DNA of 41,439 bases from Gemmatimonadaceae bacterium (GTDB lineage: Bacteria > Gemmatimonadota > Gemmatimonadetes > Gemmatimonadales > Gemmatimonadaceae): positions 1-41,439 of the forward strand of contig CANGXD010000020.1 of NCBI GenBank assembly GCA_947457545.1, read 5' to 3'. Below are positions 478 to 13,292 of this stretch, piece by piece. Position 1 is the stretch's first letter; each line of letters opens with the position of its first letter. Under the pieces are notes generated by a model. The model did not search any database. It saw only the letters and a list, made by a program, of their open reading frames with translations, and had not been told where the DNA came from. The translations under genes were made by a program, and so were the position numbers.

Positions 478-3210
478 ATGCCACCGCCTGTCACCACACC
501 GTCTGCCCAGCGCACCCCTGCGCCAGTATCCGCTGCATCCTCCACGTCACCTTCAACGCCGTGGCATACCCTGACGGCGGAGGCCACCATCACCATGCTG
601 CACAGCGATGTGCAGAACGGCCTTGCGATGGCCGAGGTGACTCGCCGACTCGCTGAGTACGGAGAGAACGTTCTGGCCACGGCGGCCAAACGCGGGCCGT
701 GGCGCATGCTGTTGGCGCAGTTCACCGATGTCATGGTGCTGGTGCTGCTCGCCGCCGCGGCGGTGACCGCGGTGGTAGGAGACATCGAAGACATCATTGC
801 CATTCTCGCAATCGTCGTCCTCAACGCCACACTCGGCTTTGTGCAGGAGTACCGCGCCGACAAGGCTATGGCCGCGCTCGGCGCCATGTCTGCAGCAACG
901 GCGCGAGTGCGCCGAGACGGTGTCGAACACACCGTGCCACCTCAGGCGCTGGTCCCCGGTGACATCGTGCTGCTCGACGCCGGAACCGTCGTGCCCGCCG
1001 ATCTGCGCCTGCTGGAGGTATCCCAACTCAACGTGGAAGAAGCTGCACTCACCGGCGAGTCGCTCCCGGTGCACAAGTCGATTGCGCCCAACAGTGACCC
1101 GCAGGCGGCGTTGGGTGATCGCCGGGCGATGGCGTACAAAGGCACCAACATCGCCAGCGGCCGTGGACTGGGGGTGATCGTGGCCACCGGCATGCAAACG
1201 GAGCTCGGGCGCATTGCCGCGTTGCTCACGGAAGACACGCGCCTGCGCACGCCGCTGCAGCAACGTCTGACTGCGCTCGGTAAATGGCTCGCCATTACCG
1301 TCCTCGTGGTGTGCGTGGCCATTTTTGTGGCGGGTCTCCTTCGCGGCGAACCGGTGGCGCTGATGTTCATGACTGCCGTCAGCCTCGCCGTGGCGGCCAT
1401 CCCGGAAGCACTCCCCGCAGTCGTAACCGTGTCGCTCGCACTCGGCGCGCGACGCATGGTGCAACAGCATGCCCTCGTGCGACGACTGCCTGCCGTGGAA
1501 ACGCTGGGATCCGTGACGTACATCTGCACGGACAAGACCGGCACCTTGACCGAGAACCGCATGCGGGTGGATGCGGTTCTTACAGTGAAGAACGAACCGG
1601 GGGAGAGTCTCGGTCATGGTGTGCCGCTGCAGGAAACGCCCCTGACGTTTGCCGAAGCGGTGACCCTCTGCACCGACGTGCAGCAGGCGCACGACGGCGT
1701 GCTGACGGGAGACCCGACCGAAACGGCGCTGGTGCGCTGGGCCGTTGAGCAGGGAGTTGATGCGTCGACATTGCGTGGCCGGTGGCCGCGCGTAGGCGAA
1801 CTGGCCTTCTCTTCCGAACGCGCCCGAATGACTACGGTGCATACCACGAGCGACGGGGAGTATCGCGTCGCCTGCACCAAAGGGGCTCCAGAGCGGGTCA
1901 TTCCAGCGTGCACGCGCATGTGGTACCAAGGCTCGCTCATCCCGGTGGAGGCCGCAGACGTGTTGGCCCACGCCAACAGCATGGCCGCGAGCGGATTGCG
2001 CGTGCTGGCCATCGCGATGAACTGTGACAAGCAAGCCGCTGCAGCGCCGATAGCCCCACTGGAGGAACAGCAAGTCCTGCTCGCGCTGGTGGGTCTGCTG
2101 GATCCACCGCGAACGGCAGCGCGCGACGCCGTCGCGACCTGTCATGCCGCTGGCATTCGGGTGGTCATGATTACCGGTGATCATCCCGCTACCGCGCGGG
2201 CAATCGCCTCGCGGCTGGGGCTCATTGCCGCCGATGCCGGCGAAGAGGACGTGCTGACCGGTGCGGCGCTGCAGGCGCTCGATGATCAGGGGCTGCAGCT
2301 ACGCGTGGAGCACGCCCGGGTGTATGCGCGCGTGACCCCCGAGGACAAGATGCGCATTGTGACCGCGCTGCAGGCGCGCGGGGAATACGTCGCCATGACC
2401 GGCGACGGCGTGAACGACGCGCCCGCGCTCAAGCGCGCCAACATCGGGATCGCCATGGGGCGCGGCGGCACCGACGTCGCGCGCGAAGCGTCGGACATGG
2501 TGTTGCTGGATGACAATTTCTCGACGATTGTGGTCGCCGTACGTGAAGGCCGGCGCATCTACGACAACATTCGACGGTTTGTGCGCTTTGTGCTGTCCAC
2601 CAACGCCGGCGAGATTTGCACCTTGTTTGCGGCGCCGCTGTTCGGACTGCCGCTGCCGTTGCTCCCTATTCACATCCTGTGGATGAACCTCATTACCGAT
2701 GGCCTCCCGGGGCTGACGTTGTCAGCTGAACCGGCTGAGGTGGGGATCATGCAGCGTCCGCCTCGACCGCCGCAGGAGAGCATCCTGTCCCACGGTCTCT
2801 GGCAGCACGCCGTGCGCGTGGGGCTGCTGATGGCCGCGCTGGCGCTGGGAATCCAAGCGTGGTCGCTGCACACCGGACACGGGCACTGGCAAACGATGAC
2901 CTTTACCGTGCTCACGGTATCGCAACTTGCGCATGTCATGGCCATTCGCTCTGAACGCACGTCGCTGTTTCGCTTGGGGCTCACGAGCAACCCGTGGCTG
3001 CTGCTGGCCGTGGCAACGTCGCTGGGGCTTCAGCTGGCCATCATTTACGTACCAATCCTGAATACGGTGTTCCGCACGGCGCCGCTGTCGTTTGGCGAGC
3101 TGATACTTTGTCTTGTGGTGTCCTCCGTGGTATTTGTGGCGGTGGAACTGGAAAAACTCCTCATCCGTCGGCGTGAAGACCGGGCCGACACGAGTTCCCA
3201 ACGGACATGA
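478..3210 (+). CDS. Calcium-type P-type ATPase (P2A)
   Basis: Cation-pumping P-type ATPase of 910 residues, near the usual length for P2A pumps. It has the cation N domain (about 30-90), TGES actuator loop (192-195), DKTGT phosphorylation motif with Asp352, nucleotide-domain KGAPE (468-472), and hinge TGDGVNDAP (641-649). The membrane helices carry the Ca2+ ligand pattern of SERCA: PEALP in M4 (Glu310), NAGE in M5 (Asn709, Glu712) and NLITD in M6 (Asn737, Thr740, Asp741). Having all of these argues for Ca2+ rather than Mg2+ or K+, though Mn2+ cannot be excluded. The ATG at 478 has no clear Shine-Dalgarno and the first 28 residues are Pro/Ser/Thr-rich. The stop overlaps the next start (ATGA), so the two are probably translated together. 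Confidence 0.95.
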   Translation: MPPPVTTPSAQRTPAPVSAASSTSPSTPWHTLTAEATITMLHSDVQNGLAMAEVTRRLAEYGENVLATAAKRGPWRMLLAQFTDVMVLVLLAAAAVTAVVGDIEDIIAILAIVVLNATLGFVQEYRADKAMAALGAMSAATARVRRDGVEHTVPPQALVPGDIVLLDAGTVVPADLRLLEVSQLNVEEAALTGESLPVHKSIAPNSDPQAALGDRRAMAYKGTNIASGRGLGVIVATGMQTELGRIAALLTEDTRLRTPLQQRLTALGKWLAITVLVVCVAIFVAGLLRGEPVALMFMTAVSLAVAAIPEALPAVVTVSLALGARRMVQQHALVRRLPAVETLGSVTYICTDKTGTLTENRMRVDAVLTVKNEPGESLGHGVPLQETPLTFAEAVTLCTDVQQAHDGVLTGDPTETALVRWAVEQGVDASTLRGRWPRVGELAFSSERARMTTVHTTSDGEYRVACTKGAPERVIPACTRMWYQGSLIPVEAADVLAHANSMAASGLRVLAIAMNCDKQAAAAPIAPLEEQQVLLALVGLLDPPRTAARDAVATCHAAGIRVVMITGDHPATARAIASRLGLIAADAGEEDVLTGAALQALDDQGLQLRVEHARVYARVTPEDKMRIVTALQARGEYVAMTGDGVNDAPALKRANIGIAMGRGGTDVAREASDMVLLDDNFSTIVVAVREGRRIYDNIRRFVRFVLSTNAGEICTLFAAPLFGLPLPLLPIHILWMNLITDGLPGLTLSAEPAEVGIMQRPPRPPQESILSHGLWQHAVRVGLLMAALALGIQAWSLHTGHGHWQTMTFTVLTVSQLAHVMAIRSERTSLFRLGLTSNPWLLLAVATSLGLQLAIIYVPILNTVFRTAPLSFGELILCLVVSSVVFVAVELEKLLIRRREDRADTSSQRT

Positions 3211-4508
3211 CCTGCAGCACTCGCAATCCGGAACCGGTGGCGCGGCGGCGACCGTCGCTGTTCGCGTGCGCCCTCCTGATGCTGAGTCTCGCGGTACTGG
3301 TCGGCAGCGCGTGCCGTCGCCCCCCCGCGCCAGATACCCGGGCGATATCAGACGGGGCGACCGGCCACGCCACCGTCCTCATCTCGCTCGACGGCTTTCG
3401 CGCAGACTACATCACGCGTCCCGGGGCGGTGCGATTGCGCGAACTTGCCGCGCGCGGCACACGCGCCGAACGACTCATTCCCGCGTTCCCCAGCAAGACA
3501 TTCCCCAATCACTACACCATCGTCACCGGGCTGTATCCGGAGCATCACGGCATCGTGGCCAACACGATGCGTGACGAACGCATCGGCACGACGTTCACCA
3601 TCGGCGACACGCTCATTGCGCGCGATCCGCGCTGGTGGGGCGGAGAACCCATCTGGAACACCGCCGAACGGCAGGGGGTGCGTACCGCCGCCTTCTTTTG
3701 GCCCGGCAGCGACTACGCCATCAACGGGCGCTATCCCACGTACTACACGCCGTACGATGGCCGCATCCCTAATGATGTCCGTGTGCAACGCGTGCTCGAC
3801 TGGCTCTCCATGCCCGCCGCCACGGCACCACGTTTCGTCACGCTCTACTTCAGCACCACCGACGACGTCGGGCACAAGCACGGTCCGCTCACCGCGCAGG
3901 TGGACACCGCCATCGCGCACGTCGATTCGCTCATCGGCGCCCTTGTCGACGGACTCGCGGCGCGCAGACTCACCGATCGCGTGAACCTCGTCGTCGTCTC
4001 CGACCATGGCATGACCGAAATCGACAGTACACGCGTCATCCGTCTCGACGAACATGCTTCACTCGCCGACATGGACGTCGTCGACTGGATGCCCGTGACC
4101 GCCGTGACTCCCAAGCCCGGCAGACTGGCCACCGTGTATGCGGCACTCCGTCGGGTGCCACACCTGCAGGTCTTTCACAAAGACAGCGTGCCCGCGCGCT
4201 TTCACTATCGCGCGCATCCGCGCATTACGCCGCTCGTACTGCTCGCCGATGAAGGGTGGACGATCTCCAGTACTGAGCGTGTGCAGAAGTCCGGCCCACC
4301 GGTGGGCGGCACGCACGGCTACGACAACGAGCTCCCCAGCATGGGGGCGTTGTTCGTTGCGGCTGGCCCGGATATTCAGCGCGGCCGCGTGATCGGCCCC
4401 GTGGCCAACGTGCACGTGTACCCGCTGCTCGCGCACTTGCTCGGCGTGCGCGCCGCGCCGTCGGATGGATCGCTGGACGCGATGCGTGCGGTGCTGCGGG
4501 TGCCGTGA
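3207..4508 (+). CDS. Secreted nucleotide pyrophosphatase/phosphodiesterase family protein
   Basis: A 433-residue member of the alkaline-phosphatase superfamily, NPP branch, which hydrolyses phosphodiester or pyrophosphate bonds with two metal ions and a Thr nucleophile. Visible are SLDGFRADY (Asp62, metal), PSKTFPNHY (Thr98, nucleophile), DDVGHKHGP (Asp219 and His223), VVSDHGM (Asp266-His267) and GTHGYDN (His370), so the full metal and nucleophile set is present. A hydrophobic N-terminal segment (about 16-35) ends in GSAC, so export is likely; lipoprotein status is uncertain because the -3 residue is Gly. The start overlaps the stop of the Ca2+-type ATPase by 4 nt. NPP enzymes release phosphate or nucleotides outside the cytoplasm, and a PstS-like gene lies nearby, but a shared phosphate role is only inferred. 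Confidence 0.9.
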   Translation: MTCSTRNPEPVARRRPSLFACALLMLSLAVLVGSACRRPPAPDTRAISDGATGHATVLISLDGFRADYITRPGAVRLRELAARGTRAERLIPAFPSKTFPNHYTIVTGLYPEHHGIVANTMRDERIGTTFTIGDTLIARDPRWWGGEPIWNTAERQGVRTAAFFWPGSDYAINGRYPTYYTPYDGRIPNDVRVQRVLDWLSMPAATAPRFVTLYFSTTDDVGHKHGPLTAQVDTAIAHVDSLIGALVDGLAARRLTDRVNLVVVSDHGMTEIDSTRVIRLDEHASLADMDVVDWMPVTAVTPKPGRLATVYAALRRVPHLQVFHKDSVPARFHYRAHPRITPLVLLADEGWTISSTERVQKSGPPVGGTHGYDNELPSMGALFVAAGPDIQRGRVIGPVANVHVYPLLAHLLGVRAAPSDGSLDAMRAVLRVP

Positions 4509-4726: not shown

Positions 4727-5155
4727 TTATCGCGGCGTGATCGTCTCCGACTCCGTCGTCGCCAACGGCTTCCCTTCGTGGTCGGAGATCAGCACCCATA
4801 CCGTACGTGATCGCCTCGAGTACAACAAGCGCACGGTCACGTCACGCGGGTTCTGCTTGAAGGCAAAGTGAAAGTGAAAGCTCGTATCGAGCGCTTCACG
4901 AATCACCCCTTCCTTGAACCGACCGTAGAACTCCTGCACGCGCGTGCACGGCGCAATCTCGGTGAAGAACTGTTTGCCGATCGCGTCTTCCTTGCGCAAC
5001 GACGCCAGCTTCGACTCCACCGCGTTGTAATTCAGAATGCGCCCGCTCGCATCGAGCTGGATCATGCCGTAGGGCAAACGATCCAGTTCGTCGGTGTTCA
5101 TGGTATCGACGGCCTCGAGGACTTCGTCGATCTGCTGCGTGTAGCGGTTGGGCAT
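4727..5155 (-). CDS. pyp: Photoactive yellow protein (PYP)
   Basis: A 142-residue single PAS-fold protein that aligns almost position for position with the 125-residue PYP of Halorhodospira. The chromophore loop FFTEIAPCTRVQEFYGRF contains Cys70 (Cys69 in PYP), which binds p-coumaric acid as a thioester. LNYNAVES supplies Tyr43 and Glu47 (Tyr42 and Glu46), which hold the phenolate. The positions of Thr50 and Arg52 are Ala and Leu here, as happens in some PYP relatives and expected to tune colour and photocycle. A short C-terminal tail of about 15 residues exceeds the classic length. I chose the ATG at 5155 because the PYP homology starts there; an upstream in-frame extension has no PYP-like sequence. 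The Shine-Dalgarno is weak. No tyrosine ammonia-lyase or coumarate ligase gene is in the window. The gene diverges from dnaE2. Confidence 0.9.
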   Translation of the reverse strand: MPNRYTQQIDEVLEAVDTMNTDELDRLPYGMIQLDASGRILNYNAVESKLASLRKEDAIGKQFFTEIAPCTRVQEFYGRFKEGVIREALDTSFHFHFAFKQNPRDVTVRLLYSRRSRTVWVLISDHEGKPLATTESETITPR

Positions 5156-5207
5156 CGGACGGACCGGGGACAAACAGGGAGTGTCCTTGAAGAATAACGC
5201 CCCGCAC

Positions 5208-5252
5208 GCGCCAAACGGCGGCGAGTGAGGCGGCCGCCGCCACATTTGGCGC
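5208..5252. promoter_or_regulatory. Inverted repeat in the PYP/dnaE2 intergenic region
   Basis: The 127 bp between the two divergent starts hold an inverted repeat: outer arms GCGCCAAA (5208-5215) and TTTGGCGC (5245-5252) match perfectly. Inner GGCGGCG (5217-5223) pairs with CGCCGCC (5235-5241) after a 2-3 nt bulge. It could be an operator for one or both genes, or a leader hairpin. The function is inferred. Confidence 0.45.
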
Positions 5253-5262
5253 CCAGTTGCAG

Positions 5263-5277
5263 GTTCGGTGTATATTC
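5263..5277 (+). promoter_or_regulatory. Candidate LexA-like box upstream of dnaE2
   Basis: The sequence reads GTTC, seven bases, ATTC, one base from the GTTC-N7-GTTC direct repeat known for alphaproteobacterial LexA. It ends 5 bp before the chosen dnaE2 start, a place where a bound repressor would block initiation, and dnaE2 is a LexA target in many bacteria. The LexA motif of this organism is unknown, so this is a weak candidate. Confidence 0.3.
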
Positions 5278-5282
5278 GGTAT

Positions 5283-8200
5283 ATGCAGTACGCCGAACTT
5301 CACGCCCACTCCGCCCTGTCCCTGCTCGACGGGGCCTCCCTGCCGGAAACGCTCGCGGAGTGCGCCGCGCAGCTGGGATACACCGCACTGGCGCTCACCG
5401 ACCACGACGAAATGGGGGGCGTGGTCCGCTTCGGCACGGCCTGTGAAGCGCTCGACCTTGGTGGCATTCTGGGCACCGAGCTCACCGTGCGCATGCCACA
5501 GCTCGCCGGCCGTGGCGGCGAACGCCCCACCCACCTCGTGCTGCTCGCCGAAACGCGCGAAGGCTACCGCAATATTGCCTCGCTCGTCACACGCGCTCGC
5601 ATGGACAGTGAGCGCGGCCGTGCGAGTGTGCCGTGGGCGCTCGTTACTCGACACGTGGAAGGGGTGACGGCACTCAGCGGTTGTCCGCGTGGCTGGATCC
5701 CGCAACTGCTCGCCGAAGGACATCCCGAGCAGGCATGGACCGCCGCCACCGAATTGCGCGATGTCTTCGGTGAGCATCTCGCCATCGAATGCTGGGATCA
5801 CCGCCTTCCCGAAGAACGCGCACTCGTGCAGCAGCTGCAACCGCTGGCGCACAAACTCGGCGTGCCGTGGGTCGTCACCAACAACGTGCATTACGCCACC
5901 CCGGAGCAGCGCATCGTGCACGACGTGCTACACACGTTGCGACATGAACGCACCCTCGACACCATGGGTACGCGCCTCAAGCCCAACGCCGAGTGGGCGC
6001 TCAAACCCATCAAGCGCATTTATCAGCGCTGGCGTGGTGCCGAAGAAGGCATTCGTGCGTCGGTCGCCATTGCCGAACGCTGTGCCTTTCGGTTGCAGCA
6101 GCTCAAGCCGAGCATGCCGGCGTTTCCGTTGCCGCCCGGTGTTTCCGCGCAGGAGTATCTCGCACGACTCGTCGAGCAGGGCGCCTACGAACGGTGGGGC
6201 GATGCGCGCACGCCCAAGCACGACCGCCAGCTCGCGCACGAACTGGGGATGATCCGCAAACTCGATCTGGCCGGCTTTTTTCTCATCGTCTGGGACATCG
6301 TGCGCTTCGCACGGCGCGAGGGCATTCTCTGTCAGGGACGCGGCTCGGCGGCCAATTCCGCAGTTTGCTATTGCCTTGGCATCACCGCCGTCGATCCCAT
6401 TCGCATGGAGCTGCTCTTCGAACGCTTTTTGAGCGAAGAGCGCAAGGAACCGCCCGACATCGACATCGACTTCGCGCACCGCGATCGCGAGCGGGTGTTG
6501 CAATACGTGTACAACCGCTACGGACGCGAACACGCGGCTATGGTGTGCGAACAGATCACCTGGCGCGGGCGCAGCGCCGTGCGCGATGCGGCGCGCGTGC
6601 TGGGGTTCAGTACGCAGCAGGCCGACATGCTCGCCGCCCTCAGCGATCGTTTCAGCGCCAAGAGCACCGCGGAGGCGCTGCGGGTCACACCATCTGATGA
6701 CGACACGGCCCCGCAGAAGCCGAGGAGCGACGCCGAGCGACTGGGGGAGCAGATGATGCAGGGAACCGAGGCCACCACCAAGGCGCGTGTCGTTCGTGAA
6801 GCCGCACGCACTGTGGCGGCATCACCAACGCGTCTCACGTCGTCCGATCGCCCCAAGCCCAAGGCCAGCTACGAACCGCACGGCTCCCCCAACGCGCAAC
6901 GCACACCCAAGGGCATCACCGAACGGGACGCCACGTGGGCACAGCTCATCGATCTGCAAGCCGAACGCAAATTGGCGAACGACGAACGTGCGCAGCTCGG
7001 CCCACTCGCCAAGGGCGCGGAGAAGCCCCCCACGAAGGAAACGCACGCCGAGTTCGTGGAAGGGCGCAATCGTACCACCGCCACACGCGACGAAAGCACC
7101 GGACGTGAGCTGTTGCAACGCGCCGGGCTCGACCCCGACGATCCGCGCGTGCAACAGCTCGCACGCGTGGTAAACGGACTGCATCAGCTGCCGCGGCACC
7201 GCTCCATTCACGTGGGCGGCTTCATTCTCACCGAAGAGCCGCTGGGCAGTATCGTACCGCTCGAACCCGCGTCCATGCCCGGGCGCACGGTCATTCAGTG
7301 GGAGAAGGACGATCTCGACCCCGTGGGGCTCGTCAAGATCGACCTGCTCGGCCTCGGCATGCTCACCGTGGTGCAGGACTGCCTGCTGTACATCCGGCAC
7401 ACGCGCGGCGTGAACGTCGACCTCGGGCAGCTCGACATGAGCGATCAGGCGGTGTACGACGTCATGTGTCGCGCCGATACCGTGGGGCTTTTTCAGATTG
7501 AAAGTCGTGCGCAGATGAACACGCTGCCACGGCTCCAGCCACGCTGTTTCTACGATCTGGTGGTGGAGGTGGCGCTCATTCGGCCGGGGCCCATTCAGGG
7601 GGAAATGGTGCACCCCTATTTGCGTCGTCGCGCGGGGCTCGAGCCCATTACGTATCCGCACCCCAGTGTGGAGAAGGTGCTGCGACGGACGCTCGGCGTG
7701 CCGCTCTTTCAGGAGCAGGGGATGCAGGTGGCCATTGCCGCAGCCGGCTTCACGCCCGGGCAAGCCGATGTGTTGCGTCGCGCCATGGGCCACAAGCGCT
7801 CGCGCGAACGCATGGCCGCCATTTGCGAAGAGCTCATTGCCGGTATGGCGCGCAACGGTATCCCGGAGGAAACCGCGCGGCGCATTTACAATCAGATCAA
7901 CGCTTTCGCCGATTACGGCTTTCCGGAAAGTCACGCGGCCAGCTTTGCGCTGATCGTGTACGCCACCGCATGGCTACGGCACTACTACGCGCCCGAATAT
8001 CTGTGCGCCATTCTCAATGCACAGCCCATGGGCTTCTACTCGCCCGGCACTCTCATCGAAGACGCCAAGCGTCACGGAGTGGAAGTACGCCCCATCGATC
8101 TCACCAAGAGCAGCTGGGATCACAGCATCGAACTCTCAGATGGTCGCATCCTCGTGCCCAACGACGGCACCGCCAGAATGCTCCAACCCACAACTCAAAA

Positions 8201-8975
8201 CCCGAACTCAGAGCTCACGGCTCACCCCCCAGCCGCTCCATCTCCCCCCGCCGTGCGCCTCGGCGTCCGCCTCATCCGCGGCCTCGGCGCCCGTGCCCGA
8301 CGTGCACTCGAAGCCGCACTGCGCGACGGTCCCTTCACGAGTATCGACAATGCCGTGCGCCGCGTGTCGCTCGACAAGCGCTCGTGGCGTCATCTCGCCG
8401 AGGCGGGCGCGTTCGACAGCATGTTCGCGCATGAACCGGCAGACCGCCGTCGCCGAGTGGCGTTGTGGGAAGTGCTCGCTGCCACCCGCGGCCCCGAGCT
8501 CCCTCTGGCTCCCCGCGAAGCGCCAGCCCCTGCCCCGCAACTGCCTGCCTACGCGCCAGTCGAACTCACCGAGGCCGATTACCGCATGACTGGCTTATCG
8601 CTCGCTGGGCATCCCATGAAGCATGTCCGTGAATATCTCGCGCTCAACGGTGTGCTCACCGCCGCCGAAGCACATGCGCATGGGAAGGACGGTCAACCCG
8701 TGGCCGTGGCGGGCCTCGTGATCTGCCGACAGCGTCCAGGCACCGCCAAGGGCTTCGTCTTTCTCACTCTCGAAGACGAAACCGGCATGGTGAATATCGT
8801 CGTCACTCCCGATCGCTTCGAACAGCACGCGCTGCTCATCTCCACCACGCCGCTGCTACTCATTCGTGGCACGCTGCAGGTGGAGCAACACGTGGTGAAC
8901 GTACGCGCCAAGCAGTTCAAGGCACTCGAACTCGGGGGCGGGGAGCAGCACATCAAGGGGCACAACTACCGCTGA
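5283..8975 (+). CDS. dnaE2: Error-prone DNA polymerase III alpha subunit, DnaE2 type
   Basis: C-family DNA polymerase used in damage tolerance and induced mutagenesis. The N-terminal PHP domain starts AELHAHSALSLLDGAS and continues with LALTDHDEMGG and GTEL. The palm carries the catalytic Asp set in PPDIDIDF (Asp394, Asp396) and KIDLLGLGML (Asp687). Fingers (RRAMGHKRSRERM) and an HhH region follow, then a C-terminal OB fold (VAVAGLVICRQRPGTAKGF). There is no long tau-binding tail, and RHRSIHVGGFILTEEPL is typical of DnaE2. The product is 1230 residues, against about 1050 for the family; the excess is a hydrophilic insertion at about 460-600. I chose the ATG at 5283 because DnaE2 proteins begin at this AELH motif; an in-frame ATG at 5268 is an alternative. 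Neither has a good Shine-Dalgarno. The usual partners imuA and imuB are not beside it. Confidence 0.93.
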   Translation: MQYAELHAHSALSLLDGASLPETLAECAAQLGYTALALTDHDEMGGVVRFGTACEALDLGGILGTELTVRMPQLAGRGGERPTHLVLLAETREGYRNIASLVTRARMDSERGRASVPWALVTRHVEGVTALSGCPRGWIPQLLAEGHPEQAWTAATELRDVFGEHLAIECWDHRLPEERALVQQLQPLAHKLGVPWVVTNNVHYATPEQRIVHDVLHTLRHERTLDTMGTRLKPNAEWALKPIKRIYQRWRGAEEGIRASVAIAERCAFRLQQLKPSMPAFPLPPGVSAQEYLARLVEQGAYERWGDARTPKHDRQLAHELGMIRKLDLAGFFLIVWDIVRFARREGILCQGRGSAANSAVCYCLGITAVDPIRMELLFERFLSEERKEPPDIDIDFAHRDRERVLQYVYNRYGREHAAMVCEQITWRGRSAVRDAARVLGFSTQQADMLAALSDRFSAKSTAEALRVTPSDDDTAPQKPRSDAERLGEQMMQGTEATTKARVVREAARTVAASPTRLTSSDRPKPKASYEPHGSPNAQRTPKGITERDATWAQLIDLQAERKLANDERAQLGPLAKGAEKPPTKETHAEFVEGRNRTTATRDESTGRELLQRAGLDPDDPRVQQLARVVNGLHQLPRHRSIHVGGFILTEEPLGSIVPLEPASMPGRTVIQWEKDDLDPVGLVKIDLLGLGMLTVVQDCLLYIRHTRGVNVDLGQLDMSDQAVYDVMCRADTVGLFQIESRAQMNTLPRLQPRCFYDLVVEVALIRPGPIQGEMVHPYLRRRAGLEPITYPHPSVEKVLRRTLGVPLFQEQGMQVAIAAAGFTPGQADVLRRAMGHKRSRERMAAICEELIAGMARNGIPEETARRIYNQINAFADYGFPESHAASFALIVYATAWLRHYYAPEYLCAILNAQPMGFYSPGTLIEDAKRHGVEVRPIDLTKSSWDHSIELSDGRILVPNDGTARMLQPTTQNPNSELTAHPPAAPSPPAVRLGVRLIRGLGARARRALEAALRDGPFTSIDNAVRRVSLDKRSWRHLAEAGAFDSMFAHEPADRRRRVALWEVLAATRGPELPLAPREAPAPAPQLPAYAPVELTEADYRMTGLSLAGHPMKHVREYLALNGVLTAAEAHAHGKDGQPVAVAGLVICRQRPGTAKGFVFLTLEDETGMVNIVVTPDRFEQHALLISTTPLLLIRGTLQVEQHVVNVRAKQFKALELGGGEQHIKGHNYR

Positions 8976-8976
8976 G

Positions 8977-10506
8977 CTACTGCACGTCGGACCGTGACGC
9001 CCTTACGAGCTGCTGCGCCGCATTTACCAACGCGTACTCGGAGAACGGCGACGGGAGTACCGACCACACACCCGCCACGCCATGCCATTCGGGACGCGGC
9101 GCGTCGGACTCTCCGCTCAACAAGAGGACGGGAACGGACGGCCACTGCTGCTGCAGCGTGCGCGGGAATGCCGCATCACCACTCTGTGCCGCCGTTCCCA
9201 CGACGATGAGTGCCGGCACGGCTACGTGCTGCAGTAGTTCCAGCACCTCTTCTCCCGACGCGGTGGCCAGCACGCGGTATCCTACCCGGGCGAAGCTCCG
9301 CACGAGCACGGTCCGCGTCGGCTCGTGAGGCTCCACGACCAGAACGGTACGAGCTCGCGCTCCCGTCGTGCCGACACTCGTCGCCCCGCGGCCACTCGCG
9401 AGCGGCGGAGACGCGACCCACACAACGAACGTGGCACCGTGATTCGGGGCGCTCGCGAATGTGAGAAAGGCGCTGTTCTGCCGGGCCATCCCCAGCAACG
9501 CGGGCAATCCGAGTCCCGGTGCCCCGTCGGCGAGATGGGTGGTGAAGAACGGCTCCAGCATATGGCGTTGCACGTCGGCCCCGATCCCCTCGCCCGAGTC
9601 GCGTACGGTGATCGTGACGTACGCGCCGGGAGGCATGATCCGCGCATCCGCCGCAAGCTGCGGCGCGGATAATGTCGTGGCGCGCACCGCGACCTGGATC
9701 TGTCCGCTGGTGCGCGTGGCAGATCGCGCGTTGTCGAGCAGACATTCCATCATCTGCTGCAGGTGGCGCGCATCCATGTGCACCGCCGGAACAGCCCCCG
9801 AGGCGTAGCCCACTCGGCCCGACGGCGCGTTCGCCGCGACCTCCCATTCCTGCAAGATGGCGTAGACGGAGGTGTTGAGAAACAACCGGCGCGGCATGAA
9901 CGGCGCATCACCCACGACCTGCAGCATCCGTCGGGTAATCATCGCACTCGAATGGGCCGCACGGCTGACCTCCGCCACATCTGCGCGCTGGTCGTCCGAC
10001 AACGTCGAGGTCAGGAGCCCCTCGCTGAAGCCGATGACCACCTGCAACCGATTGTTCAGCTGATGCGCGATGCCGCCCATGACGGCGCGCCAGTCAGCGT
10101 TGCGCTCTGCCTGCCGCCGCTCCTCCTCCAGCGCCAATGCGGTGCGCTCCGCTTCGAGCTGATCGTGCAGGTCGTGCAGCACCAAATGGGCCCTGAGGTG
10201 CCCGGCGTGAACGAACAGCTGCGCACTCACCTCCACCTCTCGCACCGAACCGTCGAGCACATGCAGACGTTCTCGCGCGAAGGAACGCGAAGCGTCTGTG
10301 CCCGTGCGGTCACACAGCGCACGGGCGACCGACTTGAGATACGGCCGTTCGAACAGCATCGATACCGGATGACCCACGAGTTGATCGTGCCGGCTCGCTC
10401 CAGCCAGGCGCAGCGTGGCCGCATTCACGGCGACAATGTGCTGACCATCGTGAACAACGAAACCATCCGGCGCCTGCTCGACCAACTGCGCGTAGTACCC
10501 GTTCAT
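8977..10506 (-). CDS. PAS histidine kinase with C-terminal pseudo-receiver
   Basis: A soluble 509-residue sensor kinase, last gene of the KaiC operon. An N-terminal PAS domain (about 1-110) has the start EQAPDGFVVHDGQHIVAVN. A short coiled coil (115-140) leads to the H-box GGIAHQLNNRLQ with His148, of the HDFNN-like class. The ATPase domain has LLDNARSA (Asn259), DSGEGIG (303-309) and GLGL (331-334), so kinase activity is plausible. Residues 387-500 have a receiver fold pattern, but the acidic pair is Glu-Pro (VVEPHEPTR), the phosphoacceptor position reads VVGTAAQ with no Asp, and the switch Lys is Ser (LPSPFS). This receiver should therefore not accept phosphate by the usual chemistry. The ATG overlaps the kaiC-like stop by 4 nt. 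The gene ends 1 bp from the dnaE2 stop on the other strand. Confidence 0.9.
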   Translation of the reverse strand: MNGYYAQLVEQAPDGFVVHDGQHIVAVNAATLRLAGASRHDQLVGHPVSMLFERPYLKSVARALCDRTGTDASRSFARERLHVLDGSVREVEVSAQLFVHAGHLRAHLVLHDLHDQLEAERTALALEEERRQAERNADWRAVMGGIAHQLNNRLQVVIGFSEGLLTSTLSDDQRADVAEVSRAAHSSAMITRRMLQVVGDAPFMPRRLFLNTSVYAILQEWEVAANAPSGRVGYASGAVPAVHMDARHLQQMMECLLDNARSATRTSGQIQVAVRATTLSAPQLAADARIMPPGAYVTITVRDSGEGIGADVQRHMLEPFFTTHLADGAPGLGLPALLGMARQNSAFLTFASAPNHGATFVVWVASPPLASGRGATSVGTTGARARTVLVVEPHEPTRTVLVRSFARVGYRVLATASGEEVLELLQHVAVPALIVVGTAAQSGDAAFPRTLQQQWPSVPVLLLSGESDAPRPEWHGVAGVWSVLPSPFSEYALVNAAQQLVRASRSDVQ

Positions 10507-11990
10507 GGAGTCGTGCGAAGGGACCTCGTAGGTATTCCGGTCATGATGCCATCGAAATCACGGAGCGTACGCCCCAGCGCAATCCCCCCTTCGGTGGACG
10601 TGTACAGGTGGAACGCGCGACTATGGTCACTGCCCCGCATCTTCACGACGACAAGCGCCTTGCGCAGCTCGCCCTCAACCTCGATGTAGCGCTGACTGAG
10701 AATGATGTCGGTAAGAAAGGAGACACGATATCCAGTCAGCGTCGCCTGATCTTGCGCCTCGATCTCCACCGTCGAGTACATCGTCACGCCGAGGCTGGTG
10801 AGGGTACCGATGAGCCGGTACAGCGACTCGCGGAAGTCTTCACGAAACGTCGGAGCGAGCGCCATCTCGAATCCGTTGATGGAATCGATGACGACGCGCG
10901 TGGCACCGGTCTCGGCGACGGCATCACGAATCTCCTGAAGCGTTTCGTCCACGGACAGATCGAGCGGCCGCAGATAAATGATGCGCAGACGGCCGGCCGC
11001 GGCAGCCTCGGTGAAGGCGGCCCCGAACCGTGAGGCGCGCGCCAGGTACACATCCGGTCGCTCCTCGAACACGGCCACCACCGCCGACTCACCAGCCGCC
11101 AAGCCGGCCTGCACGAACTGCATGGCGAACGTCGTCTTTCCCGATCCGGTGGGTCCGGCCAGGACCAACGAGTCGCCGATGGGAATGCCTCCCCCCATCA
11201 GCGCATCCAGTCCCTCGATCCCCGAGGCCAATCGTGATCCCGAAACGTTGGGGAACGCCCCGTGCTGTGCAGGCACGCGCGGAAACACCTGCACACCGGC
11301 TGAGGTCATCTTGAGCGTATGCAGCCCCGGCATATGCTGCACGCCACGCGACTTCACCACCTGCAGCTTGCGCACGACCGAGTTGCGGTCGACGTCCTGC
11401 GTCAGCCAGAAGATGCCGTCGGCTACCGTGAAAACGGGATTGCGCAGCTCCTGCTGCTGATACTCACCGATGAGCACGGACGTGATGTCCCATGTGGTGA
11501 GGTGCAGCGCAAGCCGTTGCACAAATCGTTCGATGCTCCCTGCCGGCTCGTCGCTATCGACCGCGTGTACGAGCGACCGGAACGAGTCGACGACCACCAT
11601 GCCGGGGTGCAGCGTCTCCACGTCGTGCACGATGCGCGCGAGCACCGCATCGAGGTCGCCGGAGAGCGCCTCTTCACTGAGGTTGAGAAAGTGCACGCGG
11701 CGGCCCAACGCACTCGCATCGAAGAACCCGAAACACTGCTGATAGCGCAGCATTTTGAGCGATGTCTCACCGAGCAGCGTGATGAACAACCCGGGCCGCT
11801 CTTCGGTGGCCGTCGCGAAGAGCAGCTGCATGGCCATCGTCGTTTTCCCCGACCCCGGTCCACCGGCAATCAGATTGAACGACAGCGCGGGCAGTCCGCC
11901 ACCGAGCACTTCGTCCAATCCGGGGACCCCGGTGAGCAGCAGTGGCACAGCGGGCGCGGCGGTGGTGCGCGACGAAGAAGAGATGTTCAT
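10503..11990 (-). CDS. KaiC-like double RecA-domain ATPase
   Basis: A 495-residue protein with two tandem KaiC/RecA domains, near cyanobacterial KaiC in length (519). Domain 1 has Walker A GGPGSGKT (43-50) and Walker B MVVVDS (131-136); domain 2 has GPTGSGKT (279-286), the FEE catalytic pair (Glu309-Glu310) and RVVIDS (365-370). In domain 1 the matching position reads LGE, so one of the two acidic residues is lost. The C-terminal stretch YIEVEGELRKALVVVKMRGS and the IPTRS tail match KaiC. The region of the two KaiC phosphosites (Ser431-Thr432) reads Ser424-Phe425, so only the serine remains. It overlaps both neighbours by 4 nt, in an operon with a kinase and a LuxR regulator. No kaiA or kaiB is present, so the role is more likely a signalling ATPase than a proven clock. 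Confidence 0.92.
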   Translation of the reverse strand: MNISSSSRTTAAPAVPLLLTGVPGLDEVLGGGLPALSFNLIAGGPGSGKTTMAMQLLFATATEERPGLFITLLGETSLKMLRYQQCFGFFDASALGRRVHFLNLSEEALSGDLDAVLARIVHDVETLHPGMVVVDSFRSLVHAVDSDEPAGSIERFVQRLALHLTTWDITSVLIGEYQQQELRNPVFTVADGIFWLTQDVDRNSVVRKLQVVKSRGVQHMPGLHTLKMTSAGVQVFPRVPAQHGAFPNVSGSRLASGIEGLDALMGGGIPIGDSLVLAGPTGSGKTTFAMQFVQAGLAAGESAVVAVFEERPDVYLARASRFGAAFTEAAAAGRLRIIYLRPLDLSVDETLQEIRDAVAETGATRVVIDSINGFEMALAPTFREDFRESLYRLIGTLTSLGVTMYSTVEIEAQDQATLTGYRVSFLTDIILSQRYIEVEGELRKALVVVKMRGSDHSRAFHLYTSTEGGIALGRTLRDFDGIMTGIPTRSLRTTP

Positions 11991-12427
11991 GATGGAGTAT
12001 CGGTGTCGTCAGGATCCGCGAGGCCGCGTGGGGCCGCGGTGCCGCTGAGTTCGATCAGGTGTATCGCCATGGGGGCGCCAATGATGGCCCCGAGCTGCGA
12101 CATCATGGTGACCAACAGGGCCACGACGGCTTCACGGCTCGCGGCCGCATCCAGTGGGGGCGACGCCGCGCCAGCCGGTGCGCCCTCTGCACCGCCAAGA
12201 TCGGCGATCGACGCCAGGATCGGTTGGGAAGGCATGGTCAGCGCGACCGAGCGCGACAGAAGCGCCGCGTATCCTTCCGCACCGACCCATCGGCGCAGCG
12301 CACTCTCGAGTTGAGTGAGCACGGTATCGATGATCGCCGCCGCGTCTCCCATGGGGCGCGCACGCATTTCCGCATACGCCCACAACCCGCGCGCCACGGT
12401 GTGTGCCCGATCTTCAGTCGCGCTCAC
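11987..12427 (-). CDS. Unknown protein encoded inside the KaiC operon
   Basis: A 146-residue protein I do not recognise. It begins with GTG, which overlaps the stop of the regulator gene (GTGA), and its own stop overlaps the kaiC-like start (ATGA), so translation is coupled on both sides and the frame is well supported. The sequence looks mostly helical, with an amphipathic N-terminal half (DTVLTQLESALRRWVGAEG), an Ala/Gly/Pro-rich hinge (about 80-95), and a hydrophobic helix (AVVALLVTMMSQLGAIIG, about 100-120). There are no cysteines and no catalytic motif. Position suggests a partner or adaptor of the KaiC-like ATPase or kinase, but there is no direct evidence for that. Confidence 0.8.
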   Translation of the reverse strand: MSATEDRAHTVARGLWAYAEMRARPMGDAAAIIDTVLTQLESALRRWVGAEGYAALLSRSVALTMPSQPILASIADLGGAEGAPAGAASPPLDAAASREAVVALLVTMMSQLGAIIGAPMAIHLIELSGTAAPRGLADPDDTDTPS

Positions 12428-13143
12428 GGTTGTTCACCCGGCGTTCGGGTATGTGCCGCCACTTCCAGCCTGCTGTGCAGCGACAGCTTCTCGAGAATGT
12501 TATGCACGTGCCGCTTCACCGTATGTACGGCGATGTACAGGCGATCGGCGATCTCCTTGTTGCTCATCCCTTCCCGCAACAAGCCAATGATTTGTCGTTC
12601 ACGTTTGGTAAGACTCGCCTGATCAGCCGCCGACAGCCCGGCCACCGGTACTGCATGGCTGCGGATCTGCGAGAACAGTGACATCGTGAGCGCACGCGGC
12701 AGACTGGGTTCGTCGTTCGCCACATGACGCACCGTCTCCACGAACTGCGATGGACTGGCCGATTGCATGATGAATCCGGTGGCGCCGGCATGGATGAAGG
12801 CCGCGACATCGTCATGCATGACGGTCATGCCCGTGATGATGATCCGCAACTCCGGCGACGTCAGTCGTAGCGCTATGCACCCCGCCAAACTGTCGGGGTT
12901 CGCCACGGAGACATCGAGGAGTGCCACGATCGGCGCCCCGCGGAACAGCGTGGGCGAGATCGCCGGCACACCGGCCACGGCATCTACGGCGGCAAGCAGC
13001 GAAAAGCCGGGGGCGAGCGAGAGCGTCGCAACCGTGCGGGCACGCACCGTACGACGTGCCTCGATGACGATAACCGACACCGGGAATGTCGCGAGCCCGC
13101 GCTCGCGGCGCGTCTCCTGCGACTCCGGCGATGTTTCCTGCAT
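12424..13143 (-). CDS. LuxR/NarL-family response regulator with atypical receiver
   Basis: A 239-residue DNA-binding regulator, first gene of the KaiC operon. The C-terminal LuxR helix-turn-helix (about 177-233) is textbook: LTKRERQIIGLLREGMSNKE followed by IADRLYIAVHTVKRHVHNIL. The N-terminal receiver (20-145) keeps the phosphoacceptor position (LLDVSV, Asp77) and a Thr (IIITGM), but the acidic pair at the start is Glu-Ala (VIEARR) and the switch Lys is Gln (GFIMQSAS). It may therefore be phosphorylated poorly or act without phosphate. I chose the ATG at 13143: AAGGGAG sits 6 nt upstream, while an in-frame ATG at 13236 has no such support. The operon order regulator, unknown, KaiC, kinase suggests that it is the output. 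Confidence 0.9.
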   Translation of the reverse strand: MQETSPESQETRRERGLATFPVSVIVIEARRTVRARTVATLSLAPGFSLLAAVDAVAGVPAISPTLFRGAPIVALLDVSVANPDSLAGCIALRLTSPELRIIITGMTVMHDDVAAFIHAGATGFIMQSASPSQFVETVRHVANDEPSLPRALTMSLFSQIRSHAVPVAGLSAADQASLTKRERQIIGLLREGMSNKEIADRLYIAVHTVKRHVHNILEKLSLHSRLEVAAHTRTPGEQP

Positions 13144-13206
13144 TGCGCTCCCTTGAGGTAGGCGCACGGCCACGCCGGGGAACTCCCAGTGGGATCGCGA
13201 TCGGGC

Positions 13207-13225
13207 CACGGCGCGTGACGCCGTG
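13207..13225. promoter_or_regulatory. Hairpin upstream of the KaiC operon
   Basis: CACGGCG and CGCCGTG form a perfect 7-bp stem with loop CGTGA, 64 bp upstream of the regulator start. It may be an operator for the regulator or a leader hairpin. It is a small feature in GC-rich DNA and could be chance. Confidence 0.3.
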
Positions 13226-13292
13226 CCCTCGTGCACGTAATCTAGCTCGTAATCGACGGGACCGGGTCATCTCCGGTCAGCCCCACCGATCG

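Follow-up and report, generated by a model that had tools for sequence, protein, structure and literature searches.

A photoactive yellow protein gene divergently paired with the error-prone polymerase gene dnaE2 in Gemmatimonadaceae, and its possible coupling to the SOS mutasome

The stretch of DNA analysed here (the window, 41,439 nucleotides) is contig C20 of the G000 assembly, which comprises 4.6 Mb in 321 contigs and is 85.8% complete. On its minus strand lies pyp (4727..5155), an open reading frame of 142 codons plus stop that begins with an ATG at 5155; the plus-strand reading of the same interval is interrupted by a stop. The product, termed PYP-1 below, is a single-domain photoactive yellow protein (PYP) with the chromophore-site residues Tyr43, Glu47 and Cys70. 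The gene stands alone, with dnaE2 upstream on the opposite strand and a type I phosphodiesterase/nucleotide pyrophosphatase gene (3207..4508, plus strand), retained only in part of the close relatives, converging on it from downstream. The dnaE2 gene (5283..8975, plus strand) encodes an error-prone DNA polymerase that passes the cut-off of NCBIfam NF004225 (1242 bits against 939); the ATG at 5283 is our choice of start, the frame being open from a GTG at 5268. Between the two start codons is a divergent intergenic region of 127 bp (5156..5282), and within it a direct repeat, TTCGGTGTATATTCGG (5264..5279, plus strand), probably a LexA (SOS) box, ends three bases ahead of the dnaE2 ATG.

On the far side of dnaE2, and convergent with it, an apparent operon occupies 8977-13236 of the minus strand. 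It starts with a NarL/LuxR-type regulator (12424..13236) and also contains a small unknown protein, a KaiC-like double-domain ATPase (10503..11990) and a PAS-HisKA-HATPase hybrid histidine kinase with a C-terminal receiver-like domain (8977..10506). The kinase is a possible signalling partner for PYP-1. The closest named relatives of the PYP-1 protein include those of an unclassified pond MAG (L143, 100%) and of the Gemmatimonas sp. UKL202c MAG (L144, 99%), and because a Gemmatimonas MAG is among them we assign this freshwater organism to Gemmatimonas. Two photosynthetic reaction-centre genes are present in G000, which makes anoxygenic phototrophy probable. PYP-1 was considered as a marker of phototrophy and rejected, since a cross-table compiled by hand for 24 genus genomes shows no clear association (PYP-1 and pufLM together in 14, PYP-1 only in 3, pufLM only in 4, neither in 3).

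A preliminary description of this DNA, made from its letters, placed a PYP gene at 4727..5155, and sequence searches, structure comparison and phylogeny all agree. In a phmmer search of the PDB, PYP is the best match (E 2.9e-24), the PYP domain of Rhodospirillum centenum Ppr (PDB 1mzu) the second (8e-24), and the matches at E 0.001 comprise PYP, Ppr-PYP and FAST derivatives only. Ppr is a fusion with a phytochrome and a kinase, whereas the window protein is stand-alone. The structural comparison with PYP that had been proposed as a check was made with a model derived from the window protein together with 71 relatives from genome contigs (mean pLDDT 83). Its top 40 Foldseek matches in the PDB consist solely of PYP, Ppr-PYP and FAST structures, with other PAS proteins ranking lower; among them is 1gsv (rmsd 1.6, TM 0.88 by target length), the G47S mutant of Halorhodospira halophila PYP. 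The window protein thus has the fold of H. halophila PYP (PDB 2phy, 1gsv) at 36-38% identity (Foldseek), and in our tree it is placed among PYPs. A generic PAS domain that merely resembles PYP could draw on the Pfam assignment, PF00989 (PAS), and on the score against NCBIfam TIGR02373 (photoactive yellow protein), which at 110 bits (E 7.8e-32) is under the curated cut-off of 143. However, Pfam also places H. halophila PYP in PF00989, and TIGR02373 is reported to recover just ~20% of PYPs (Xing 2022, PMC9664959); given that coverage, we did not take its cut-off, passed by none of 395 phylum genomes, as defining. Together with the PYP-specific residues, the PDB matches, the Foldseek ranking and the tree position leave the generic PAS reading nearly excluded, and we are confident that the window gene encodes a genuine PYP.

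Tyr43, Glu47 and Cys70 of the window protein align with Tyr42, Glu46 and Cys69 of H. halophila PYP, whose numbering is used from here on, and the Cys lies within FFTEIAPCT; the two proteins also have the APCT loop and single-domain form in common. The near-identical numbering of three key residues and the kept APC loop, on which the preliminary description rested, are therefore borne out. We followed these positions in the PYP-1 set, defined as 31 Gemmatimonadaceae proteins (window included) with at least 180 bits against the window protein and found by a profile search that did not require the Cys. Cys69 and Glu46 are each kept in 31/31, and Ala67, Pro68, Thr70, Phe62 and Phe96 are likewise invariant; position 42 is Tyr in 28 and Phe in 3. 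The invariance of Cys69 is the more telling because a twin gene in the same genome has lost this residue. APCT is invariant too in a wider alignment (A2: 71 of 80 relatives kept from 357, nine with extension past a stop being left out), which is not evidence, the selecting pattern itself having demanded APCT. The PYP-1 alignment indicates that the chromophore site is under strong constraint.

The window protein differs from H. halophila PYP in having Phe98, Gln100 in place of Met100, and Ser, Leu, Ala and Leu at positions 47, 49, 50 and 52. Ser47, Leu49, Ala50 and Leu52 are the PYP family consensus, and absorption of the four Ala50 PYPs described falls within 435-465 nm (Dohmen 2025, PMC12826048). 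A special colour arising from changes at Thr50 and Arg52 had been predicted; the residues are indeed replaced, by Ala and Leu, but both substitutes are the consensus and we have dropped the idea. Position 100 is Gln in 28/31 PYP-1 proteins. As Met100 has been proposed to aid re-isomerisation of the chromophore (Xing 2022, PMC9664959), recovery may be slow, and Gln100 is more likely than Ala50 or Leu52 to slow the photocycle.

In contrast to H. halophila, the window pyp has no tal/pcl operon, and dnaE2 is its neighbour. G000 (86% complete) contains a single PF00221 lyase, which scores 620 bits, above the hutH cut-off of 539, and sits in an apparent histidine-degradation (hut) operon, the gene names being our reading of the open reading frames. 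Its selectivity loop aligns as RSH, which we take to be the histidine-lyase motif, and not as YHL, presumably the tyrosine-type motif. No tyrosine ammonia-lyase (TAL) is recognisable in this assembly, nor any dedicated coumaroyl ligase (pCL), where only generic ligases were found; neither is recognisable in the single-contig PYP-1 carrier G074, which has one lyase. Among 30 genus genomes, a second PF00221 lyase is present only in G039, G372 and G398, the one in G039 having the YHL motif and adjoining a different PYP (L075); G398 and G372 alone have dedicated pCL matches scoring over 50 bits. With a single histidine lyase and no dedicated pCL, p-coumarate would have to come from outside, from a promiscuous enzyme or from a gene that the searches missed, or it is not supplied at all. 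A TAL/pCL source is not part of the published definition of the PYP family, and generic ligases and uptake are possible routes.

The preliminary description had held blue-light sensing to be expected. A complete and conserved site speaks for this, but with no recognisable tal or pcl it is not simply expectable. Absence of tal/pcl together with close relatives lacking the Cys had been named as the pair of findings that would tell against a functional photoreceptor; the first holds as far as our searches see, while all 31 PYP-1 proteins keep the Cys. Given an organism with no recognised coumarate pathway, PYP-1 might work without p-coumarate in vivo, its pocket holding some other small molecule or the protein acting as an apo form. 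The histidine type of the only G000 lyase, the scarcity of dedicated pCL in the genus and the loss of Cys69 from a same-genus paralogue would all fit, yet the invariance of Cys69, Glu46, Ala67, Pro68 and Thr70 is hard to explain without a thioester. Moreover, of 113 predicted pyp operons just 5% include TAL and 32% pCL, and pCA uptake or enzymes encoded elsewhere have been suggested (Dohmen 2025, PMC12826048). We therefore think a PYP-1 without p-coumarate unlikely and consider it probable that PYP-1 binds its chromophore in vivo.

That a stand-alone pyp lies beside a mutagenic polymerase had been singled out as unusual, and this neighbour provides our strongest result. We fetched 67 PYP loci (L044-L110), 16 of which belong to none of the three groups counted, including L110, a 42-bit match in a multidomain protein. 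In 29 of the 30 fetched PYP-1 loci, from nine genera, dnaE2 is on the stretch, and the window provides one further pair. Scored by script, the genes are divergent in 28/30 and no more than 500 bp apart in 25/30; other genes intervene in three loci, with gaps of 3555 to 4401 bp. One locus (L069) was scored as non-divergent through an over-extended dnaE2, its named copy (L146) being divergent, and a gap of 857 bp in another (L045) reflects a split dnaE2, the gap in its named copy (L158) being 184 bp. The only locus without dnaE2 (L059) is from G245, in which no dnaE2 match was found at E 1e-200 in a search that scored four candidates per genome and can miss a split dnaE2, G245 included. Named loci (L143-L172) carry dnaE2 in 30/30 and largely repeat the fetched genomes. 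Around the pair, gene content is reshuffled: 303 of 307 cross-genus locus pairs have no other clustered flanking gene in common, a figure that is not a probability, the loci sharing ancestry and the stretches being 4-17 kb long with some under 2 kb on one side; gene calling and clustering were home-made (35% identity, 60% coverage). The mutagenic polymerase adjoining pyp is a conserved partner.

A second mutasome gene often lies close by. An imuB-like gene is found within 600 bp 3' of pyp in 9/30 loci from six genera, so that pyp lies antisense between it and dnaE2; the window has no imuB. Members of this family (cluster 2, of which one was tested and matches PF00817) are named imuB by us. As controls we took 20 dnaE2 loci whose genomes had not been scored as carrying PYP-1 (19 from drawn genomes without a PYP-1-level match, and G417 from outside that draw). 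Fifteen of these stretches include the imuB-like gene, in every case on the same strand as dnaE2, and in 10 it lies immediately upstream of dnaE2, no more than 300 bp away. A RecA-like match, ImuA-like in our naming, is on another G000 contig (C84), outside the window. The arrangement recalls the LexA-controlled imuA-imuB-dnaE2 mutasome, with a predicted LexA box at dnaE2 and an imuB-like gene beside dnaE2 in relatives, and differs from it in the PYP gene placed antisense inside or beside the cassette.

The exact pattern TTCGG-N6-TTCGG occurs at a single site in the window (5264..5279). It is also upstream of lexA in all 23 genus loci scanned (L253-L275; 23 of 26 loci, fragments and weak matches L276-L278 being left out), twice in 21 of them. 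Before recA the exact pattern is in 0/21 loci scanned (L279-L299; 21 of 30 loci, partial and RecA-like L300-L308 being left out), but all 21 have a relaxed form, TTCG-N7-TTCGG, some 119 bp ahead of the recA match. Of the exact sites in G000, two are at lexA and another lies 147 bp ahead of the RecA-like match on C84, and a one-mismatch site directly precedes a gene that we read as ruvB. Because the same repeat precedes lexA, recA (relaxed), the RecA-like match and the gene read as ruvB (with one mismatch), we conclude from these sequence patterns that it is probably the LexA box of Gemmatimonas. Like the alphaproteobacterial LexA box, GTTC-N7-GTTC, which it resembles in shape, it is a direct repeat. 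The background is ~0.007-0.008 boxes per promoter-sized stretch; exact sites outnumber those of a reversed control by 16 to 5 in G000, 17 to 5 in G074 and 10 to 1 in G019, but by only 13 to 8 in G039. Within the genus the box is present in 14 of the 16 pyp-dnaE2 gaps (it is missing from L048 and L051), and in other genera it is found in 0/9. We found nothing on a LexA or SOS box of Gemmatimonadetes in open-licence PMC literature.

Since the box lies at the dnaE2 end of the gap, it does not yet bear on the control of pyp, and a search for sigma-70-like promoters gave none for pyp or dnaE2. One might imagine that pyp belongs to the SOS regulon and is induced together with dnaE2 from one LexA-controlled region, so that PYP would act after DNA damage and not set the response in advance. 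The recurrence of the box in this region across the genus would suit such a scheme. Its placement would not: the box is separated from the dnaE2 start by three bases but from the pyp start by 109 bp, and the other strand of the gap contains no exact box. We regard induction of pyp with the SOS response as improbable.

A second PYP clade, from another Gemmatimonadota family in the same class, is tied to a different UV-damage gene. In 7/9 of its loci (L070, L071, L073, L076, L079, L085, L086), uvsE lies 94-215 bp downstream of pyp on the same strand; the two without it (L046, L103) are extra copies in G032. The tested uvsE member passes the UvsE equivalog cut-off, a named member (L189) identifies the family as Longimicrobiaceae, and the named loci L184, L189 and L193 likewise have uvsE, at least L189 repeating a fetched contig. 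On the opposite side, most of the uvsE-linked loci carry sugar kinase, transketolase and transaldolase genes. In the tree, the Longimicrobiaceae and Myxococcota PYPs form one group (SH-aLRT 95), which is sister to the Gemmatimonadaceae PYPs (SH-aLRT 87; few columns). Given this grouping, the dnaE2 and uvsE links may have arisen independently, or a single ancient link may have disappeared from Myxococcota. Beyond the phylum, dnaE2, imuB or uvsE was found near PYP in 0/47 loci not labelled Gemmatimonadota (tblastn 1e-8; some flanks short). A Pfam scan of 88 non-Gemmatimonadota PYP neighbours, hand-picked from 179, gave coumarate genes already known as PYP neighbours (five AMP-binding proteins and four lyases) and one SOS-associated peptidase among the first 25 of 95 families, beyond which rare repair genes may hide.

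These observations may be drawn together in a model in which a PYP-type blue-light sensor tunes the SOS mutasome to light. A p-coumaroyl thioester, or a close analogue, would be carried on Cys70 and hydrogen-bonded by Tyr43 and Glu47 (window numbering). Blue light would isomerise the chromophore, and PYP-1 would then present an altered surface to a partner protein that relays the signal. Such a partner might be a PAS hybrid kinase of the kind that follows pyp on the same strand in two relatives (L051:7032-9870; L048:7362-9020, where the contig end cuts it and leaves PAS domains only). PYP-1 would be coupled to the SOS mutasome by its place in the genome, pyp being transcribed away from a dnaE2 that is probably LexA-controlled. 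In reporting sunlight, it would allow error-prone bypass of UV lesions by DnaE2 and ImuB to be adjusted to light. We favour this as the best explanation overall, somewhat ahead of even odds, and hold the functional coupling of PYP-1 to the mutasome in the same cautious preference.

Paired genes can persist together without acting together. PYP-1 could be a PYP photoreceptor of the usual sort, its proximity to dnaE2 being without function and dating from one entry into an imuB-dnaE2 cassette in the family ancestor, the pair having stayed because pyp and dnaE2 share a divergent promoter region. All Gemmatimonadaceae cases may indeed stem from a single insertion, which weighs against coupling; the pair can loosen, as the three loci with intervening genes demonstrate, and it is not seen in any of the 47 loci outside the phylum. 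It has, on the other hand, persisted through the reshuffling of nearly all its surroundings, if over short stretches, and a functionless neighbourhood would not lead one to expect another PYP clade beside uvsE. Coincidence is a serious alternative, to which we nevertheless assign clearly less weight than to light tuning of the mutasome. It is tempting to extend the latter to a light-gated DNA-damage module of Gemmatimonadota, in which PYP, taking blue light as a cue for sunshine, sets the activity or expression of UV-lesion processing by DnaE2/ImuB in Gemmatimonadaceae and by UvsE in Longimicrobiaceae; this broader proposal is tentative, and we would give it slightly less than an even chance.

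PYP has already been published in Gemmatimonadota, among several phyla (Xing 2022, PMC9664959; Dohmen 2025, PMC12826048), with fewer than five genomes of this phylum reported to carry it (Xing 2022, PMC9664959). The statement of the preliminary description that PYP is known from few lineages is thus dated. Those proteins are of the same phylum and protein family as the window PYP, but we found no mention of a dnaE2, imuB or uvsE neighbour in the text of the two papers. In open-licence PMC literature, supplementary neighbour tables aside, we found no report of a link of PYP to dnaE2/imuB or uvsE, and nothing on PYP with a UV damage endonuclease; one review mentions PYP and dnaE2, each separately, and PMC8508746 mentions both ImuB and a photoreceptor. 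How stand-alone PYPs relay their signal is a question posed in both papers (Xing 2022, PMC9664959; Dohmen 2025, PMC12826048). The pyp-dnaE2 pair kept amid reshuffling, together with the uvsE-linked clade, offers specific candidate partners for PYP signalling. If light does tune the mutagenic polymerase, the mutation rate of bacteria exposed to sunlight would itself be subject to sensory control. To our knowledge, such a light-gated module would give the first example of a photoreceptor linked to error-prone DNA synthesis. Among the genus genomes analysed, three are single-contig, two with PYP-1 (G039, G074) and one without (G019), so that a comparison in culture may be possible.

Other PYPs accompany PYP-1 in this family. 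The twin gene in G000 (C6:62731-63087; L095:6696-7100, plus strand) belongs to a Cys-less clade with relatives in 14 of 24 genus genomes. This clade is nested in the Gemmatimonadaceae PYPs (SH-aLRT 99, 13 rows), its exact place being unsure because of a long stem. Cys69 is lost in 14/14 twins (11 Ser, 3 Gly) and Glu46 is kept; all 14 have a Cys at position 98, and four also have Cys42. Redox sensing has been proposed for methylobacterial PYPs with relocated cysteines (Xing 2022, PMC9664959) and, by analogy, the Cys-less twins may sense redox state. In 10 of 13 placed loci, the twin and a member of one particular gene family stand head-to-head; the representative tested from that family matches a sodium:solute symporter.

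A third PYP, which is only distantly related (L075:1512-7497 in G039; L068:2321-8189 in G282), has as neighbours a TAL-type lyase, an open reading frame that is weakly CoA-ligase-like, an HDOD protein and unknown proteins. It apparently forms a self-contained pyp cluster, which occurs both in the genus of the window and in a second genus of the same family. Still other Gemmatimonadaceae PYPs lie beside c-di-GMP proteins, with GGDEF/EAL domains at L082:5161-7339 and a GGDEF domain at L093:7089-10571, as has been described for other PYPs.
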